Below, piece by piece: positions 3,444-8,676 of a stretch of DNA of 8,676 nucleotides. Origin of the DNA: an uncultured Mycoplasma sp. (GTDB lineage: Bacteria > Bacillota_I > Bacilli_A > RF39 > UBA660); NCBI GenBank assembly GCA_947388575.1, contig CANDSI010000032.1, forward strand, positions 1-8,676. Direction: 5' to 3'. Numbering within the stretch: position 1 is the first letter of the stretch; every line of letters starts with the position of its first letter. The notes below the pieces were generated by a model. That model saw only the letters and a list, made by a program, of their open reading frames with translations. It made no database searches and had not been told where the DNA came from. The translations under genes were made by a program, and so were the position numbers.

Positions 3444-3475
3444 TGTCATTTAAAAAGGAAGGCTTTTAAATGATA
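3444..3475 (+). promoter_or_regulatory. Hairpin displaying the ribosome site of the late-regulator gene
   Basis: Bases 3446-3455 are perfectly complementary to 3464-3473 (10 bp), extended by a G-U and a T-A pair to 3444/3475. The eight-base loop at 3456-3463 is AGGAAGGC, which is the Shine-Dalgarno sequence of the gene starting at 3470. The start codon (3470-3472) sits in the 3' arm. In RNA this would expose the ribosome site but pair the start codon; in DNA it is a palindrome that a dimeric protein could bind. The symmetry is directly seen; a control function is inferred. Confidence 0.6.
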
Positions 3476-3889
3476 AATGGAAAAGAATTAACAGTACAAG
3501 AAATTTTAGAAGAAATGGATGAATTAAAAGAAAGATATTATTATGTTGCAAATTTATTACATAAAAATTTTCTTTCAATTAGATTAAAAGGTGTAGAATT
3601 AAAAGATATTATGGTTAAAGGTGGAAGAAAAACGTCAGATAAAATATTATTATCAATAGCTAGAAGCGAAGATTTAAATATAGAATTAGAAAGTGCTAGG
3701 GAAAGTTATTACTCTTATAAAGATTTATTAATTGATAAAATAATAGAAATGAAGAAAACTAAAAGTGTAGATGAAATGATAGCATTTTATAGAGATACTA
3801 TGCACTATAAATTTGAAGATATAGGAATACTAGTAAATTATAGTACTAAACAAGTTAAAAGAAAATATTATAAATTAAAAGAAAAATAA
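3470..3889 (+). CDS. Sigma-like HTH protein, probable late-gene activator (ArpU/RinA-type position)
   Basis: A 139-residue basic protein with AGGAAGG at 3456-3462 before ATG 3470. Residues 8-40 (EILEEMDELKERYYYVANLL) form a helix or coiled coil. Residues about 70-100 form a second long helix. The C-terminus (about 108-139, YKFEDIGILVNYSTKQVKRKYYKLKEK) has the shape of a sigma-70 region-4 helix-turn-helix: DIG.L...S...V.R...K. Small proteins with this layout, placed immediately before terminase genes, are phage late regulators such as ArpU and RinA in Bacillota. Directly downstream lie two ATGTCCC repeats and an extended -10 box (3893-3935), a reasonable target. The DNA-binding reading is good; the activator role comes from position and architecture. 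It is not assigned to a specific named family because no full-length motif decides between them. Confidence 0.75.
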   Translation: MINGKELTVQEILEEMDELKERYYYVANLLHKNFLSIRLKGVELKDIMVKGGRKTSDKILLSIARSEDLNIELESARESYYSYKDLLIDKIIEMKKTKSVDEMIAFYRDTMHYKFEDIGILVNYSTKQVKRKYYKLKEK

Positions 3890-3892
3890 AAG

Positions 3893-3935
3893 ATGTCCCC
3901 CAATGTCCCTAAAATTTGTGTTAATATGGTATCAT
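3893..3935 (+). promoter_or_regulatory. Candidate activator-dependent late promoter with TGTCCC direct repeats
   Basis: The seven-base word ATGTCCC occurs at 3893-3899 and again at 3903-3909, exactly 10 bp apart, so both copies face the same side of the helix. Downstream is TGGTATCAT (3927-3935), an extended -10 box whose hexamer TATCAT matches TATAAT at five of six positions. No -35 consensus is present at the normal distance; the second repeat would sit near -39 to -33 for a start around 3942. This is the arrangement expected of a promoter driven by an activator bound next to RNA polymerase. The likely activator is encoded immediately upstream. Transcription from here would cover the large RNA, both tRNAs and possibly the late genes. 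Confidence 0.5.
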
Positions 3936-3956
3936 AAGATATTTTTAATATCTTAT
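3934..3956. repeat. 10-bp perfect inverted repeat at the predicted transcription start
   Basis: ATAAGATATT at 3934-3943 and AATATCTTAT at 3947-3956 are perfect complements separated by TTT. No T-tract follows on either strand, so it is not an intrinsic terminator. It overlaps the -10 box end and the predicted start of the candidate late promoter, the place where a repressor operator would lie; alternatively it caps the 5' end of the transcript. Confidence 0.55.
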
Positions 3957-3984
3957 ATGGCGCACTTTTGACTTCATAATCTAA

Positions 3985-4044
3985 ACACTATCATTAGTTG
4001 ATAGTGTACTGATAGTTAGTTGCCCTTGATTAACTAACTATCGG
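3985..4044 (+). promoter_or_regulatory. Two adjacent hairpins with exchangeable arms upstream of the large RNA
   Basis: Hairpin one pairs ACACTATC (3985-3992) with GATAGTGT (4000-4007). Hairpin two pairs 4009-4021 with 4032-4044 (13 bp including one wobble), with a ten-base loop at 4022-4031. Both contain the same ACTATC/GATAGT core, so arms could swap partners. The 3' arm of the second hairpin (CTAAC at 4034-4038) is also complementary to GTTAG at 4073-4077 in the closing helix of the large RNA. This leader may be a folding or processing domain of that RNA, or an independent switch; the sequence does not decide. Confidence 0.5.
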
Positions 4045-4056
4045 TGCCCTGTTAAT

Positions 4057-4654
4057 TAATTGTTCTTTGAAAGTTAGATAACGAACCATATGAAAGGTAA
4101 CAAGACAATGTTATATGGATATAACCATAACTTTTTACTTTCGAGAGAGATTTTGAAAGGGATAGAGATTTTATTACTAGCAATAGTAGTAAGATGACCT
4201 ACAAAGTAGGTAACTTGGTTATAGTGGTTTATTATAAAGGTTTATAAGGTACAAAACTGAACGTGATAATCACAAAACTCACCTATACAGTAAAGGGTGG
4301 ATAAAAGATATATGGAATACTATCTTTGGCAAGATAGAGTGAAGTATAAATGCCAATAAGTCATTTTGTAGTTGATGTCTAGTAATAGACTATAAGTTCA
4401 GAAGTTGGTTAAAGTAGCACAAATCTACAAGTAATGGTTAGGAACTAATTTTCGATTAAGCGAAAAAGAAAATGAAAGAAACCTATGTGTGTGAAATTTG
4501 GGAGTGCAAGCCTCCTCTAGTATTAAAAGGTAAATGAAGAATAGTGGTCGCTCCATTATGAGGGCATTTACTGGCTATTGACTGAAATAAAAAATAGATT
4601 TTTATAATAAATTAATGTGAGAAACATCTTTATCTAATTTTTAAAGAACAATTA
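4057..4654 (+). ncRNA. Large ornate structured RNA, probably ROOL class
   Basis: This roughly 600-base stretch has no credible open reading frame. Its ends are complementary: 4057-4081 pairs with 4630-4654 as a 25-bp helix with only two G-U wobbles. Inside are many hairpins: 4171-4179/4184-4192 with a GCAA (GNRA) tetraloop; 4377-4381/4386-4390 with a GUAA (GNRA) tetraloop; 4197-4202/4206-4211; 4320-4326/4331-4337; 4449-4454/4461-4466; and 4541-4547/4553-4559 nested in 4530-4536/4565-4571. The loop at 4326-4330 (TTGGC) is complementary to 4352-4356 (GCCAA), a possible pseudoknot. Two multibranch domains can be drawn (4086-4118 and 4121-4223). ROOL RNAs are about 580 nt, occur in phages and prophages of Bacillota, often lie beside tRNA genes, and form large RNA-only cages; length, context and complexity all fit. 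GOLLD RNAs share the context but are usually longer. Class naming is inference; the structured-RNA call is strong. Confidence 0.75.
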
Positions 4655-4666
4655 TTTAATACAAAT

Positions 4667-4741
4667 GGTTCGTTGGTATAATGGTTATTATGCTTGACTG
4701 TCTATCAAGCGACAAGAGTTCAATTCTCTTACGGACCGCCA
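4667..4741 (+). tRNA. tRNA-Asp (GUC)
   Basis: A complete 75-base tRNA with encoded CCA. The acceptor stem pairs 4667-4673 with 4731-4737 (one U-G wobble). The D arm is 4676-4691 with GG in the loop; the anticodon stem 4693-4697/4705-4709 encloses loop CUGUCUA with anticodon GUC at 4700-4702. The T arm is 4714-4718/4726-4730 with loop UUCAAUU. The discriminator is G4738, the aspartate identity base, followed by CCA at 4739-4741. The gene starts 12 bases after the large RNA's closing helix, so RNase P cutting at 4667 would also define that RNA's 3' end. The D stem has only three pairs (13-22 is U-U). Confidence 0.93.
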
Positions 4742-4747
4742 AATGTT

Positions 4748-4891
4748 TTTATTCAAGAGTATAAGTAACCCCCTTTAACTTAACAAAAAAATAAACTTAA
4801 CCTAACTGAATAATATAAATAATTCAATGTATATACCAAATTCTTAAAATGAAATTTTTTCTTTTTTTAATTACTTATACTCTTGAATAAA
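4748..4891. repeat. Inter-tRNA element bounded by a 21-bp perfect inverted repeat
   Basis: Positions 4748-4768 are the exact reverse complement of 4871-4891. The arms begin six bases after tRNA-Asp and end ten bases before tRNA-fMet, filling the whole spacer. The 102-base interior has no reading frame, holds AACTTAAC twice (4777-4784 and 4794-4801), and a T-rich tract with one C at 4855-4868. In the transcript this would fold as one long stem, a good substrate for RNase III and a way to release both tRNAs. It could instead be a small mobile palindrome or a second small RNA. Confidence 0.65.
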
Positions 4892-4901
4892 TTTATTATA
4901 T

Positions 4902-4977
4902 CGCTCGATGGAGTAGAGGCTATCTCGGTTGGCTCATAACCAACAGAACGTGGGTTCAAGTCCCACTCGAGCAACCA
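4902..4977 (+). tRNA. Initiator tRNA-fMet (CAU)
   Basis: A 76-base tRNA with encoded CCA. The acceptor stem pairs 4903-4908 with 4967-4972, while the first position is C4902 facing A4973: the C1-A72 mismatch that marks bacterial initiator tRNAs for formylation. The D stem has A11-U24 (4912 and 4925), another initiator feature. The anticodon loop CUCAUAA (4933-4939) is that of tRNA-fMet. The anticodon stem is GUUGG/CCAAC, so two of the three conserved G-C pairs (30-40, 31-39) are present and the third (29-41) is U-A. The T arm is 4950-4954/4962-4966, discriminator A4974, CCA 4975-4977. An elongator tRNA-Met or a lysidine tRNA-Ile would have a paired first position, so initiator is preferred. 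Confidence 0.9.
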
Positions 4978-4988
4978 ATTAGATAATT

Positions 4989-5012
4989 AGATACTAATAG
5001 TATCTTTTTTTT
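4989..5012 (+). terminator. Intrinsic terminator after the RNA/tRNA unit
   Basis: AGATACT (4989-4995) and AGTATCT (4999-5005) form a perfect seven-base stem with an AAT loop, followed by an unbroken T run to 5012. The stem is A/T-rich and so probably leaky. It ends 11 bases after the tRNA-fMet CCA and five bases before the ribosome site of the ParB-domain gene. No good promoter is visible between it and that gene. Confidence 0.75.
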
Positions 5013-5028
5013 AATTTAGGAGGTAAAA

Positions 5029-5583
5029 ATGGACATAATTAATAAACAACTAAAAGAAATTAAAACATACGAAAAGAATCCTAGGAAAAATGATAAAGCG
5101 ATAGAAAGTGTAGCTAATTCTATTAAAGAATTTGGTTTTAAAGTTCCTATTATACTTGATAAAAATAATATCATTATAGCAGGACATACAAGGTATAAAG
5201 CAGCTTTAAAATTAAATTTAAAAGAAGTTCCTTGTTTAATAGCAGACGATTTAACAGAAGAACAAGTTAGAGCTTTTAGAATTGCAGATAATAAAGTAAG
5301 TGAATTAGCAGAATGGGATTTTGATTTATTAAATTTTGAATTAGAAAATATAGTAGACATAGATATGAGTAAATTTGGCTTTAATGAAAGTGATTTTAGC
5401 GCCATAGATGATTTACTTAATGAAGATTTTGTAGAAAGAGCAAATAACCCAATAGAATTTTCAGTAACTTTTAATTTTCCAACAAACAAACAATTTGAAA
5501 TAGAAAAGTTTATAAAAGATAAAGGGAAAGAGTATATAGTAGATAAAATTATAGAAATGGCAGTTGATAATAATGGCAATTAA
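5029..5583 (+). CDS. Stand-alone ParB/Srx-domain phage protein
   Basis: A 184-residue protein with a near-perfect AGGAGG at 5018-5023. Residues 8-90 form a ParB N-terminal/Srx domain: the NPRKND stretch (17-22), the SIKEFGFKVPIIL segment, the nucleotide-binding GHTR motif (52-55), then DDLTEEQ (73-79) and ADNK (86-89). The region WDFDLLNFELENI continues the pattern found in phage proteins where this domain is fused to a DNA methyltransferase. Here the methyltransferase is absent: after residue 140 there is only a short beta/alpha tail (EFSVTFNFPTNKQFEIEKFI). ParB-fold domains use CTP or ATP and act in DNA binding, nuclease or kinase roles; which applies here is unknown. Its end overlaps the radical SAM gene by 11 bases, so the two products probably act together. 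Confidence 0.85.
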   Translation: MDIINKQLKEIKTYEKNPRKNDKAIESVANSIKEFGFKVPIILDKNNIIIAGHTRYKAALKLNLKEVPCLIADDLTEEQVRAFRIADNKVSELAEWDFDLLNFELENIVDIDMSKFGFNESDFSAIDDLLNEDFVERANNPIEFSVTFNFPTNKQFEIEKFIKDKGKEYIVDKIIEMAVDNNGN

Positions 5584-6589
5584 ATGTGGTAGTCAATGTA
5601 TTTTATGTGATTTACCTTTAAGATTAGATACATATAAAGGCTGTTCTCATGCGTGTAAATATTGTTTTGTTAAAAAAAGTGTTGATATTTCTAAAATAGA
5701 AAAAGACAATTGTGTTAATAGTTTAAAAAACTTTATAGCAGGTAAAAGAAATTCAGAAACAAATTGGTGCGATTGGAATATCCCTATACATTGGGGTGGA
5801 GTAAGCGACCCGTTTCAACCAATAGAAGCTAAACATAAAATAAGTTTAGAATGCTTAAAAGTTTTTGCTGAAACTAAATACCCTTTTGTTGTATCTACTA
5901 AAGGGAAGTTATTAGCTACTAAGGAATATTTAGATGTATTAAATGAGTGTAATGCAGTAGTTCAAATTTCAATGGTATGTGATAAATATGATGTTTTAGA
6001 AAATGGTGCACCTACTTATCAAGAAAGATTAGAAATGATTAAGAAAATAGTTCCTAATTGCAAAAGAGTAATAGTAAGAATACAACCTTATATGACAGAA
6101 ATTAAACAAGATTTATTAAATAATTTACCTAAATTAAAAGAAGCTGGAGCTTATGGAATAACAATAGAGGGAATGAAATTTGCAAAAAAGAAGAGCGGTT
6201 TAGTAAAAGTTGGAGCAGATTGGTGTTATCCTAAAGACATATTAGAAAGAGATTATACTTTAATAAAAAATGAATGTCACAAAATAGGCTTAGCTTTCTT
6301 TTGTGCCGAAAATAGATTAAGAGCTATGGGTGATGATATGTGTTGTTGTGGTATAGCAGGCTTAAGTGGATTTACTCCTAACAAGTTTAACTTATGCCAT
6401 ATATTAAACGGAGATATAGTTGAACCAACTTCTAAAATGTGTGAAAAAGGAACAGCATATTGCTTTAAAAGTATGTCGCAAGATACAATAAGTGGCAGAT
6501 TTTATTCTAAAGAAGATTTTAAAAGTGCTATGGCTTATGCTTATAAGAAGAATCCAAATGGAACTAAAGAGATGTTTGGCAAAAAATAG
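5573..6589 (+). CDS. SPL-like radical SAM protein
   Basis: A 338-residue protein from ATG 5573; a TTG at 5564 would add three residues. No strong ribosome site is present, so coupling with the overlapping ParB-domain gene is likely. The radical SAM cluster motif is C24-x3-C28-x2-C31 (GCSHACKYCF). The glycine motif GGVSDPFQPIE (75-85) and this GCxHxCxYC form resemble the spore-photoproduct-lyase-like branch. A second CX3CX2C (C5, C9, C12) precedes it, and the C-terminus has further cysteines at 244, 257-259, 275, 290 and 297 that could hold an auxiliary iron-sulfur cluster. Such enzymes cleave S-adenosylmethionine to make a radical that modifies DNA, RNA, protein or small molecules. The substrate is not readable from sequence; pairing with a ParB-domain protein in a phage suggests nucleic acid, as inference. 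Confidence 0.88.
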   Translation: MAIKCGSQCILCDLPLRLDTYKGCSHACKYCFVKKSVDISKIEKDNCVNSLKNFIAGKRNSETNWCDWNIPIHWGGVSDPFQPIEAKHKISLECLKVFAETKYPFVVSTKGKLLATKEYLDVLNECNAVVQISMVCDKYDVLENGAPTYQERLEMIKKIVPNCKRVIVRIQPYMTEIKQDLLNNLPKLKEAGAYGITIEGMKFAKKKSGLVKVGADWCYPKDILERDYTLIKNECHKIGLAFFCAENRLRAMGDDMCCCGIAGLSGFTPNKFNLCHILNGDIVEPTSKMCEKGTAYCFKSMSQDTISGRFYSKEDFKSAMAYAYKKNPNGTKEMFGKK

Positions 6590-6765: not shown

Positions 6766-7143
6766 TTGAAAGTAAATGTATTAGGAACTGAATATACAAT
6801 AATAACAAATGCTGAAGAAAAATACTATCCAAAACTAATAAATTTATTAGGATACACAGATTTTTCTATAAAACAAATAGTAGTAAGAAAAATCGAACCT
6901 GATAATGAAAGTTTAGAAAATTTAAAAGTATGCGAAAGAGAAACATTAAGACATGAACTTATTCATGCTTTTTTATTTGAAAGTGGTTTAGATAATAATA
7001 GTTGGGGCAGAAATGAAGAAATAATTGATTGGATAGCTTTACAATTCGAGAAAATGTTAGAAGTATTCAGAAAAACAGATGCTTTAACTAATGATTATGA
7101 AAAAAGTAAATTAACAATAGATGCTGTAATGAGTGCTAAATAA
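6766..7143 (+). CDS. Putative phage zinc metallopeptidase (HExxH)
   Basis: A 125-residue protein. The start is TTG at 6766; GTGAGG at 6752-6757 gives the right spacing, and no in-frame ATG lies nearby. The HELIH motif (63-67, in ERETLRHELIHAFLFESGL) is a zinc-binding HExxH site, and E84 or E85 in NEEIIDWIA, about 18-20 residues further on, could be the third ligand, as in gluzincin-type enzymes. The N-terminal half is beta-rich (VNVLGTEYTIITNAEE, IKQIVVRKIEPD). Small proteins with this RHE.IHAFL.ESGL pattern occur beside packaging genes in Bacillota phages; SprT-like and ImmA-like peptidases are more distant alternatives. Substrate and need in the life cycle are unknown. No signal peptide is present, so it should act in the cytoplasm. 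Confidence 0.8.
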   Translation: MKVNVLGTEYTIITNAEEKYYPKLINLLGYTDFSIKQIVVRKIEPDNESLENLKVCERETLRHELIHAFLFESGLDNNSWGRNEEIIDWIALQFEKMLEVFRKTDALTNDYEKSKLTIDAVMSAK

Positions 7144-7158
7144 AAGAGGTGAATTAAT

Positions 7159-7524
7159 ATGAGTAATCTAATAGTTCCAACATCGGAACAAGCTCGAGTA
7201 AATGGTTCTAAAGGTGGTAAGAAAAGAGCAGAAAATGCTCGTAAGCGAAAAGCATTAAAAGAACAATTAGAAATATTCTTAAATTTACCATTAAAAAGCG
7301 AAGAAGCAAAGAAAACTTTAAAGAACTTAGGCATTGAAACAGATAGTATTGATAATCAAATGGCAATAACTGTAGCACTATGTCAAAAAGCGCTTAAAGG
7401 AGATACTAGAGCTTATGAACTTATCAGGGATACTGTTGGAGAAAAGCCAGTAGAAACCATTAATAATATAAACTTAAATTATGAGGATACCTTAAAAAAA
7501 GTAACTGATGAAAATGAGTACTAA
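7159..7524 (+). CDS. Probable terminase small subunit (KGG-motif)
   Basis: A 121-residue protein with AAAGAGGTG at 7143-7151 before ATG 7159. The N-terminus is basic with NGSKGGKKRAENARKRKALKEQLE (15-38), the KGG-type motif typical of one class of small terminase-like or DNA-binding phage proteins. The middle is helical (MAITVALCQKALKGDTRAYELIRDTVGEKPVETI, about 71-104); the DTVGEKP stretch recurs in this class, whose genes lie directly before the large subunit. The small subunit recognises the packaging start site on concatemeric DNA and stimulates the large subunit. The last 17 bases overlap the large-subunit gene. The function is assigned by motif and gene position. Confidence 0.8.
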   Translation: MSNLIVPTSEQARVNGSKGGKKRAENARKRKALKEQLEIFLNLPLKSEEAKKTLKNLGIETDSIDNQMAITVALCQKALKGDTRAYELIRDTVGEKPVETINNINLNYEDTLKKVTDENEY

Positions 7525-8676
7525 TTTAAAGATAAATACAAAAAAATATATTGAAAATTTTATAAAAATTAGAAATAAAGAAAGTAAGATTATTCCTCTA
7601 ATTTTAAATGAACCACAATTAAGGTTATATAACGAAGTAAAAAGGCAAAAAGAACTAGGGAAACCTGTTCGTATAATAATTCTTAAAGCTAGACAAATGG
7701 GTTTTAGTACAGAAACAGAAAGTATTATATTTAAAGATACAGCCACACACTTCAATGTTAATAGTGGAATAGTGGCTCATAAAGACGATTCTAGTAATAA
7801 CTTATTTAATATGAGTAAGTTAATGTATGAATGTCTACCTGATGAAATAAAGCCTAGTAAAAAAGCTTCTAATGCTAAAGAATTAATATTTGACACCAAA
7901 GACGGTAAAGGTTTAAAAAGTAAAATTAAAGTAATGACAGCAGGTGGGGATGGTATTGGACGTTCTGATACATTTAATAATTTACATATATCAGAGTATG
8001 CCTTTTGGGGCAAGAATAAAAAAGAACTTCTCATAGGTCTATTACAATCAGTACCTAATTTACCTAATACAATGATTATAATTGAATCAACAGCTAATGG
8101 TTATGATGATTTTAAAGATATGTGGGATAAGGCAGTAGCAGGAGAAAATGACTTTATACCTTTATTTGTTGGCTGGCATGAACTTAAAGAATATAGTATG
8201 CCTTATAGTGGTTTTGAATTAACTATTGAAGAACAACAATTAAAAGATAATTACAACTTAACTAACGACCAATTAGAGTGGCGTAGATGGTGCATAAGAA
8301 ATAATTGTAATAGTGATATAAATTTATTTAAACAAGAATATCCAATATGTTCTGAAGAAGCGTTCTTGTCTACTGGAGAATGTATATTTGATAAAGAGAT
8401 TTTAATAAATAGAATAGCAGAATTGAAAAAAGAAAAAGGACCACTTAGACAAGGTTCTTTTGTTTATGATTTTCATAATAATGTTATTTCTAATATTAAA
8501 TGGGTAGATGACCCTAAAGGTATTATTAAAATATATGAAAAGCCTAAAAGTGGTATTCAATATGGAATTGGTGGTGATACTGCTGGAGAGGGTAGCGATA
8601 AATTTGCAGGGCAAGTCATCGAAAAATTTACTGGAAAACAAGTAGCAGTATTATGGGGTAAGATAGATGAAGATTT
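7508..8676 (+). CDS. terL: Terminase large subunit (partial at right edge)
   Basis: At least 389 residues, running off the window. ATG 7508 and ATG 7514 are both possible starts; neither has a strong ribosome site, so coupling with the small subunit is likely. The ATPase domain is complete: an adenine-binding region near NEPQLRLYNEV (34-44), Walker A variant KARQMGFST (60-68), Walker B HISE (160-163, E163 catalytic) and coupling motif ESTANG (193-198). The RNase H-like nuclease domain begins at GIGGDTAGEGSD, with D357 as the first metal-binding aspartate; the remaining acidic residues lie beyond the edge. The enzyme packages DNA into the prohead and cuts concatemers. No frameshift or intron is seen in the visible part. 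Confidence 0.93.
   Translation, partial: MKMSTNLKINTKKYIENFIKIRNKESKIIPLILNEPQLRLYNEVKRQKELGKPVRIIILKARQMGFSTETESIIFKDTATHFNVNSGIVAHKDDSSNNLFNMSKLMYECLPDEIKPSKKASNAKELIFDTKDGKGLKSKIKVMTAGGDGIGRSDTFNNLHISEYAFWGKNKKELLIGLLQSVPNLPNTMIIIESTANGYDDFKDMWDKAVAGENDFIPLFVGWHELKEYSMPYSGFELTIEEQQLKDNYNLTNDQLEWRRWCIRNNCNSDINLFKQEYPICSEEAFLSTGECIFDKEILINRIAELKKEKGPLRQGSFVYDFHNNVISNIKWVDDPKGIIKIYEKPKSGIQYGIGGDTAGEGSDKFAGQVIEKFTGKQVAVLWGKIDED

Follow-up and report, generated by a model that had tools for sequence, protein, structure and literature searches.

The window, by which we mean the whole 8,676-nucleotide stretch of DNA analysed here, contains a long interval without recognizable protein genes. From the end of an ORF at 3889 to the start of a ParB-like gene at 5029 there is no plus-strand ORF of at least 50 amino acids. 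An earlier note, made from the sequence, had described a gene-free stretch of about 600 bases holding a large structured RNA; the absence of genes is confirmed, since neither strand carries an ORF of at least 50 amino acids across 3890-5015. The interval holds an RNA of the ROOL class (Rumen-Originating, Ornate, Large) and two tRNA genes, and its features are as follows (loci elsewhere are given by L numbers).

3470..3889, + strand: ORF directly upstream; putative late-transcription regulator, from its similarity to an ORF in L366
4050..4661, + strand: ROOL RNA gene including its extended closing helix (RF03087 model match 4062-4646, fold z -9.3, covariation in relatives)
4050..4081, + strand: closing helix P1, 5' strand (pairs with 4630-4661 in the fold; covariation)
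4138..4159, + strand: hairpin with GAGA (GNRA) loop 4147-4150 (consensus helix 6; loop GNRA in 10 of 12 RNAs)
4170..4193, + strand: hairpin with GCAA (GNRA) loop 4180-4183 (consensus helices 7-8; loop GNRA in 11 of 12)
4226..4245, + strand: second long-range helix, 5' strand, with its 3' strand at 4594-4613 (consensus helix 10; inverted repeat I4)
4317..4340, + strand: hairpin with kissing loop UUGGCA 4326-4331, taken as L8 (loop and partner change together in relatives)
4351..4356, + strand: kissing partner UGCCAA, taken as J6/8 (letters change with the loop across ROOLs)
4378..4389, + strand: hairpin with GUAA (GNRA) loop 4382-4385 (consensus helix 16; loop GNRA in 12 of 12)
4419..4490, + strand: variable linker (not alignable between relatives; no T-arm in the window)
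4542..4558, + strand: hairpin with loop GGUCGCUCC (4546-4554), taken as L18, the bridge B6 site (consensus helix 20)
4630..4661, + strand: closing helix P1, 3' strand (fold, covariation, inverted repeat)
4667..4741, + strand: tRNA-Asp (gtc), from a tRNA search; starts 5 nt past the closing helix
4902..4977, + strand: tRNA-Met (cat), from a tRNA search

Genomic setting

The protein encoded at 3470-3889 shares 54% identity with the product of the ORF that immediately precedes ROOL in L366, and 36% with its counterpart in L243/L353. It has no Pfam match and just two PHROG matches, at E 0.2-0.4. The L366 upstream protein matches phrog_36 ('transcriptional regulator') with E 0.006 and the L231 upstream ORF does so with E 4e-7; this regulator family was matched by two of the ten ROOL-upstream ORFs tested. 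Terminase genes lie downstream in the window (7159-8674). With these genes, and an upstream ORF related to a weak phage-regulator match, the earlier description of a phage late region is a fair one. Among the first downstream ORFs, the terminase large subunit was identified in L231, L243, L251, L272 and L381, and L386 has a portal gene; length decided which ten downstream ORFs were tested, so these finds give no rate. Of two phages with mainstream ROOLs, one has its ROOL between portal and minor-head genes and the other behind an exonuclease gene, about 4 kb before terminase, and gene order varies around the ROOLs looked at. The window ROOL would stand at the head of a late operon. Sigma-70-like promoters were not above chance (6 found, 6.2 expected).

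Proximity to tRNA genes is common among ROOLs and not universal. Among 42 other distinct ROOLs a same-strand tRNA lies within 100 nt in 12 and within 1.5 kb in 25. The ten RNAs in that set from the AT-rich branch described below include two with a same-strand tRNA within 1.5 kb (L344 and L341, the latter flanked by tRNAs 6 nt upstream and 16 nt downstream of ROOL) and eight with none in the available flanks. A second set of 39 distinct loci, for which the geometry of the window served to estimate the RNA ends, gave counts of 14 within 120 nt, 18 within 1.5 kb and 21 with none in the available flanks; in seven (L358, L367, L369, L374, L377, L380 and L390) the estimated ROOL start lies 12-16 nt past the end of a tRNA. 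Since a neighbouring tRNA is not general in the branch, release of the RNA 3' end by RNase P is proposed for this phage and not as a rule. Relaxed ARAGORN calls inside ROOL bodies were discarded as noise.

Just before ROOL lies a long imperfect hairpin with arms 3993-4021/4032-4060, which is terminator-like (hairpin 4006-4047). Because this hairpin's outer arm shares positions with the outer closing helix, the two structures could compete.

Identity and fold of the RNA

A covariance-model scan of 3880-4680 with permissive filters matched Rfam RF03087 (ROOL) at 4062-4646 (+) with 156.3 bits, compared with a gathering score of 99.1. The match covers the full model (1-574 of 574, E 7.2e-35); the window RNA lacks 11 of the model positions, which form a hairpin past the linker. 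The earlier note had called the element a ROOL-like ornate large RNA and had proposed comparison with the Rfam models of ROOL and GOLLD. This end-to-end match above the gathering score upholds the assignment: ROOL is significant, and neither GOLLD nor OLE is found among the matches listed for 3880-4680 at E up to 10. The RNA is almost certainly a ROOL. A mir-449 match at 3985-4068 fell under the cut-off and was taken as a chance match of the inverted repeat. A gathering-threshold Rfam scan of the whole window missed ROOL and returned two tRNAs alone, which is a property of the scan filter and not of the RNA.

The plus strand from 4040 to 4665 folds with -157.4 kcal/mol, compared with -118.2 +/- 4.2 in 20 shuffles (z -9.3); the opposite (-) strand gives z -1.8. 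The minimum-energy fold pairs 4057-4081 with 4630-4654. These are exactly the ends of the 25-bp closing helix described earlier, to which the fold adds 6 bp outward (4050-4055 with 4656-4661). An inverted-repeat search recovered the arms of this helix at 4052-4084/4627-4659, 88% complementary. The GNRA hairpins described earlier are also real, but there are three of them rather than two, and the letters of the three loops differ among 12 aligned RNAs. One long helix is mis-registered in the Rfam alignment, in which three of its eight pairs are canonical; the second long-range helix (4226-4245/4594-4613) is registered better in the branch alignment than in the Rfam alignment. A stem flanking the linker, GCACA/UGUGU, is possible in the window, with five of six test positions pairing, and the published P10/P13 numbering cannot be mapped onto it with certainty.

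An AT-rich branch of ROOL RNAs

The nearest virus record compared, IMGVR_UViG_3300006217_000303 (G001), shares half of the window's sampled words and carries the same RNA (147 bits with the ROOL model). Conserved-core patterns led to 79 virus records besides G001, 56 of which carry ROOL (37 of 50 and 19 of 29). The ROOL set, including the window and G001, comprises 59 RNAs, 44 of them distinct. Their scores fall into two groups, mainstream ROOLs at 256-385 bits and the window's side together with intermediates at 136-187 bits. Identity to the window RNA (MAFFT) is 57-67% for branch RNAs, 47-49% for five intermediates and 39-45% for mainstream ROOLs, and GC is 0.30 in the window's AT-rich branch. 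The window ROOL is a further member of a known RNA class, in an AT-rich branch of it.

A branch pattern was found in 26 contigs from metagenome-assembled genomes. Fifteen are titled uncultured Bacilli and three Tenericutes, the remainder being Bacillales, Clostridia, Firmicutes and others. Isolate names suggest that the branch contigs come from animal guts, and those within bacterial genome assemblies may be phage contigs rather than host DNA. The same pattern was found in 28 virus contigs, 14 of them new, and all 14 match the ROOL model at 136-196 bits. The exact pattern occurs in 12 of 385 genomes of one order around genome G181. Taken with its setting, the 600-base gene-free stretch is very probably the gene of a ROOL RNA in a phage, itself probably of Bacilli, and this is the best explanation overall.

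The branch is partly missed by default scans. At the default gathering threshold ROOL was found in 12 of 20 branch or intermediate loci, compared with all 20 mainstream loci, and seven of the eight loci missed score more than 99 bits elsewhere (the window, L325, L345, L346, L348, L351 and L353). L351 scored 142.4 bits in one scan and was missed in another, so that a scan miss is weak evidence. Among 31 of 40 newly found loci run against the Rfam model, 28 match and L355, L361 and L362 do not. ROOL counts from default scans are therefore likely to be too low.

Other searches returned less. A first DNA pattern, built on the kissing loop, gave chance matches, with ROOL in none of 50 records tested of at least 120 hits. 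ROOL was likewise found in none of 50 records tested from 89 virus records with ParB or radical-SAM relatives, one source list of which was the best 80 of 431. A BLAST search of phages with the region matched at a tRNA-Asp stretch alone. A mainstream ROOL as query gave no phage hits and matched five Paraclostridium plasmids over an 85-nt piece. One 402-kb virus record, IMGVR_UViG_3300032167_000002, has two distinct ROOL genes, separated by about 203 kb (L308 and L354, 327.8 and 312.6 bits).

Covariation and selection on structure

Compensatory change was assessed in an alignment of 12 distinct branch RNAs including the window and G001, with four duplicates and the five intermediates (47-49% identity) left out. 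The consensus structure has 144 pairs, 84 of which show double changes. Pairing holds in 97.2% of cells and falls to 39-47% once the partners are slid by 1-3 columns. Double-change cells number 230, compared with 64 after shuffling and 20-35 after sliding, and none of 500 shuffles reaches the observed value on any of five measures. The consensus structure was derived from this same alignment, which favours it over the slid versions, and the shuffles ignore sequence relatedness. Despite both biases, the double changes are still far beyond the shuffled and slid controls.

In the closing helix, 13 of the 24 consensus pairs show double changes among the 12 RNAs and 91% of cells are paired, so the compensatory changes among homologs that the earlier note had looked to are present. 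Across the RNA they include pairs spanning about 540 nt and loop-loop pairs. Consensus helices 15 and 17, both devoid of double changes, are not claimed; helix 15 also overlaps with the kissing partner. The ROOL architecture is present, and its helices and loop-loop contact are kept by compensatory change in the window RNA and its relatives.

These data bear on a reading in which the repeats act as DNA, or as terminators or recombination sites, rather than as folded RNA. The region does contain five inverted-repeat pairs and the terminator-like hairpin at 4006-4047. The folding excess is however strand-specific (z -9.3 compared with -1.8), and compensatory changes join positions some 540 nt apart as well as loops, which leaves the DNA reading with next to no probability beside that of a folded RNA.

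Comparison of the window with G001 shows 11 substitutions in the aligned RNA, all within 4073-4177. Eight of these are in consensus pairs, of which seven keep the pair and one breaks it; two of the seven together turn a single U-A pair into C-G. The two sequences are identical across 4178-4745, whereas divergence is 2-5% in the three long aligned blocks and 15% in a short one. The broken pair could be taken as the mark of a decaying remnant on which selection has been lost in this phage. Such decay is very improbable given the seven pairs kept and the identity of 4178-4745 next to the divergence of the other blocks; an RNA maintained by selection fits better.

A kissing loop and a conserved UCGC loop

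Published ROOL structures contain a pairing of L8 with J6/8 that joins neighbouring chains, termed bridge B4 (PMC12286853). The earlier note had suggested a loop-loop pairing of 4326-4330 with 4352-4356. This pairing is real and slightly longer, 4326-4331 with 4351-4356, and loop and partner change together in relatives. By analogy, the UUGGCA/UGCCAA pairing corresponds to the inter-chain kissing loop B4, with L8 and J6/8 assigned from helix order.

The base that follows GG and the one that precedes CC co-vary across ROOLs, as C-G, U-A or A-U. An automatic rule could score 50 of 83 distinct RNAs and gave 40 Watson-Crick pairs, two G-U pairs and eight of neither kind; 2,000 shuffles under this rule gave a mean of 24.4 and a maximum of 33. 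The rule picks the wrong hairpin in several RNAs including the window and errs both ways: a fitting loop exists by inspection for each of its eight failures, and a wrong hairpin underlies part of the 40 successes, L312, L320 and L348 among them. In a second test the best hairpin loop of 45 branch RNAs was paired with each RNA's own partner stretch, the loop being misplaced in a number of them. At least four consecutive Watson-Crick pairs were found in 25 RNAs, whereas 2,000 permutations of the partners averaged 13.8 and reached 21 at most, and mean pairing length was 3.49 with the own partner compared with 2.97 permuted (maximum 3.29). Some of the RNAs that lack CCAAUAA carry changed letters in loop and partner alike, UUCGCA/UGCGAA in L363 and L379, UAGCA/UGCUA in L387 and UGGCAU/AUGCCA in L361. 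The letter search for loop and partner is usable for L361, L363, L376, L379 and L387 alone (5-7 nt), matches of 4 nt being at chance level; long matches in L355, L378, L386 and L388 were discarded because they resemble ordinary helix strands. In the branch the letters of an inter-chain contact vary and the contact persists, which speaks for selection on assembly in nature.

The second contact is kept by sequence. UCGC is retained in the loop GGUCGCUCC in 12 of 12 RNAs. From its place in the fold, this loop may be L18 of bridge B6, which connects half-shells in published ROOL structures (PMC12286853).

These contacts also bear on whether the ROOL might be a cis element, a leader that protects or times the late transcript, with cage formation incidental. 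Its position between a putative regulator and the tRNA and terminase genes would suit a leader, as would the lack of a separate promoter above chance and the overlap of the upstream inverted repeat (3993-4021/4032-4060) with the outer closing helix. Against a leader stand the B4 contact kept by co-change and the B6 loop kept by sequence in the branch; elsewhere ROOL is described as a very abundant RNA (PMC12286853), and gene order is not constant around the ROOLs looked at. We consider the leader unlikely.

Comparison with known systems

The window RNA has in common with ROOL (RF03087) the full-length match, the closing helix and the GNRA hairpins, and further the B4 contact, the loop placed at B6, the variable linker and the phage and tRNA setting (PMC12286853). 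It differs in being AT-rich, in its 39-45% identity to mainstream ROOLs, in the 11 deleted model positions and in being missed by the default scan. GOLLD resembles it as a large phage RNA near tRNAs that forms a 14-mer cage with a disordered internal loop (PMC12286853), the cage of the window RNA being predicted. In sequence and secondary structure GOLLD is described as distinct from ROOL (PMC12286853), and it is absent among the window matches at E up to 10. OLE (Ornate, Large, Extremophilic) is likewise a large structured RNA that forms a homo-oligomer, in its case a dimer (PMC12286853). In contrast to ROOL, OLE is absent among the window matches listed at E up to 10. OLE is not known to be tied to phage tRNA regions.

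A score that is low for a ROOL, the default-scan miss and the low identity to mainstream members could mean that the RNA belongs to another class (GOLLD, OLE or one without a name) and merely resembles ROOL. The model match is however full-length, the five intermediates at 47-49% identity bridge the window RNA and the mainstream, the kissing-loop logic and the conserved UCGC loop are shared with ROOLs, and GOLLD and OLE are missing from the matches listed at E up to 10. Membership of another class is thus highly unlikely, and we treat the RNA as a ROOL.

tRNA T-arms in some linkers

In ROOL cages the linker is the disordered part in the interior (PMC12286853). We searched 83 distinct RNAs (6.8 kb of linker and 45.8 kb of other sequence) for T-arms, defined as a stem of at least 4 bp around a TTCRANY loop. 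T-arm-like hairpins were found in the linkers of six RNAs, L344, L363, L370, L375, L376 and L379, compared with 0.14 hits per set of mononucleotide-shuffled linkers. Of four hits outside linkers, one is just past the linker in L384, and the other three fall at the distal ends of L382, L385 and L391, in places where ARAGORN calls tRNA genes. The window linker (4419-4490) has no T-arm.

All six loci match the ROOL model, and none has a whole tRNA in its linker. Since L363 and L379 are 92% identical and L370 and L375 95% identical, the six RNAs represent four lineages. Between L363 and L379 the T-stem is kept by a change from G-C to A-U. The L344 linker also has anticodon-arm-like and D-arm-like hairpins. 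A scan of all viral contigs for linker T-arms gave three hits, none of them a ROOL; a branch-specific scan gave none, with a gap limit that would miss L344; and a linker T-arm was found in one of 146 genomes of one order, that of L363 itself. So few finds in viral contigs and 146 genomes indicate that the feature is rare. In a literature search that lacked the founding ROOL paper, we found no published report of tRNA pieces in ROOL linkers.

The plain explanation is that linker T-arms are the decay of tRNAs inserted from neighbouring arrays. A bolder reading, which we hold to be a long shot, is that branch linkers took up T-arm modules (4-8 bp stem, TTCRANY loop) in four lineages, that factors handling tRNA, such as EF-Tu, TruB, TrmA or RNase P, would meet T-arm bait or tethered pieces of tRNA in the cage interior, and that ROOL would be a phage device for gathering or shielding tRNA machinery late in infection. 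As its own linker is without a T-arm, the window RNA at best shares the linker site. In GOLLD, tRNAs are sometimes present in the linkers (PMC12286853), which would suggest a gathering or shielding of tRNA machinery for GOLLD, a cage unrelated to ROOL.

Branch linkers are said to be without conserved sequence, yet a run GATAGTAAA or close variants of it recurs in many, by eye and uncounted in those of L359, L367, L374, L380, L381, L383, L387 and L388. This run might pair with UUUAC of the next hairpin.

A proposed mechanism

We propose that the late operon would be transcribed with the ROOL at its head, in common with the tRNA genes that follow. Cleavage by RNase P at the tRNA-Asp 5' end would leave a ROOL 3' end 5 nt past the closing helix, and the freed RNA would assemble with copies of itself into a hollow cage. 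Other members of the class self-assemble into octamers or hexamers (PMC12286853; PMC12191101), Lactobacillus salivarius ROOL being reported as a hexamer (PMC12191101), and by analogy the window RNA probably does form a cage. More speculatively, the cage might hold or shield translation-related molecules late in infection, the linker inside tethering cargo. The branch offers two leads, the place of the RNA before tRNA and terminase genes and the linker T-arms of some relatives. A role with the tRNA machinery strikes us as doubtful. Prophage GOLLD RNA is reported as dispensable for phage production (PMC7567579) and ROOL as non-essential in one Ligilactobacillus strain (PMC12286853), so that any function would be conditional.

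Other features of the neighbourhood

Between the two tRNA genes lies a perfect 21-bp inverted repeat (4748-4768/4871-4891) enclosing 102 nt, with fold z -5.4. Its arms are largely kept in G001, and it has no Rfam match at the gathering score. The nearest relative has an extra tRNA-Phe between tRNA-Asp and this repeat (L215 5426-5501), which the window (4742-4745) is without. Genes for tmRNA lie within about 1.5 kb of ROOL at L298 3127-3538, L301 2233-2657, L348 1206-1623 and L240 13570-13988, so that in several contigs ROOL sits in translation-related clusters.

The ParB-like gene that follows ROOL in the window (5029-5583) has a counterpart in L389 (8645-9118, 53% identity) that likewise follows a ROOL, 726 nt downstream. 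That ROOL is of the branch, so the two genes are sometimes neighbours; the contig is also record L037 of the list with ParB or radical-SAM relatives, outside the 50 records tested from it. A radical SAM protein (5564-6589) overlaps the end of the ParB-like gene; its Rv2578c/PA0069-type matches are far below cut-offs, and a pattern search placed relatives at 13 loci in viral contigs. Further downstream, the protein at 6766-7143 (phrog_1233) carries a motif that we take to be HEXXH-like, and has a 42% identical counterpart that likewise comes after ROOL in a mainstream ROOL phage (L331 2314-2625).
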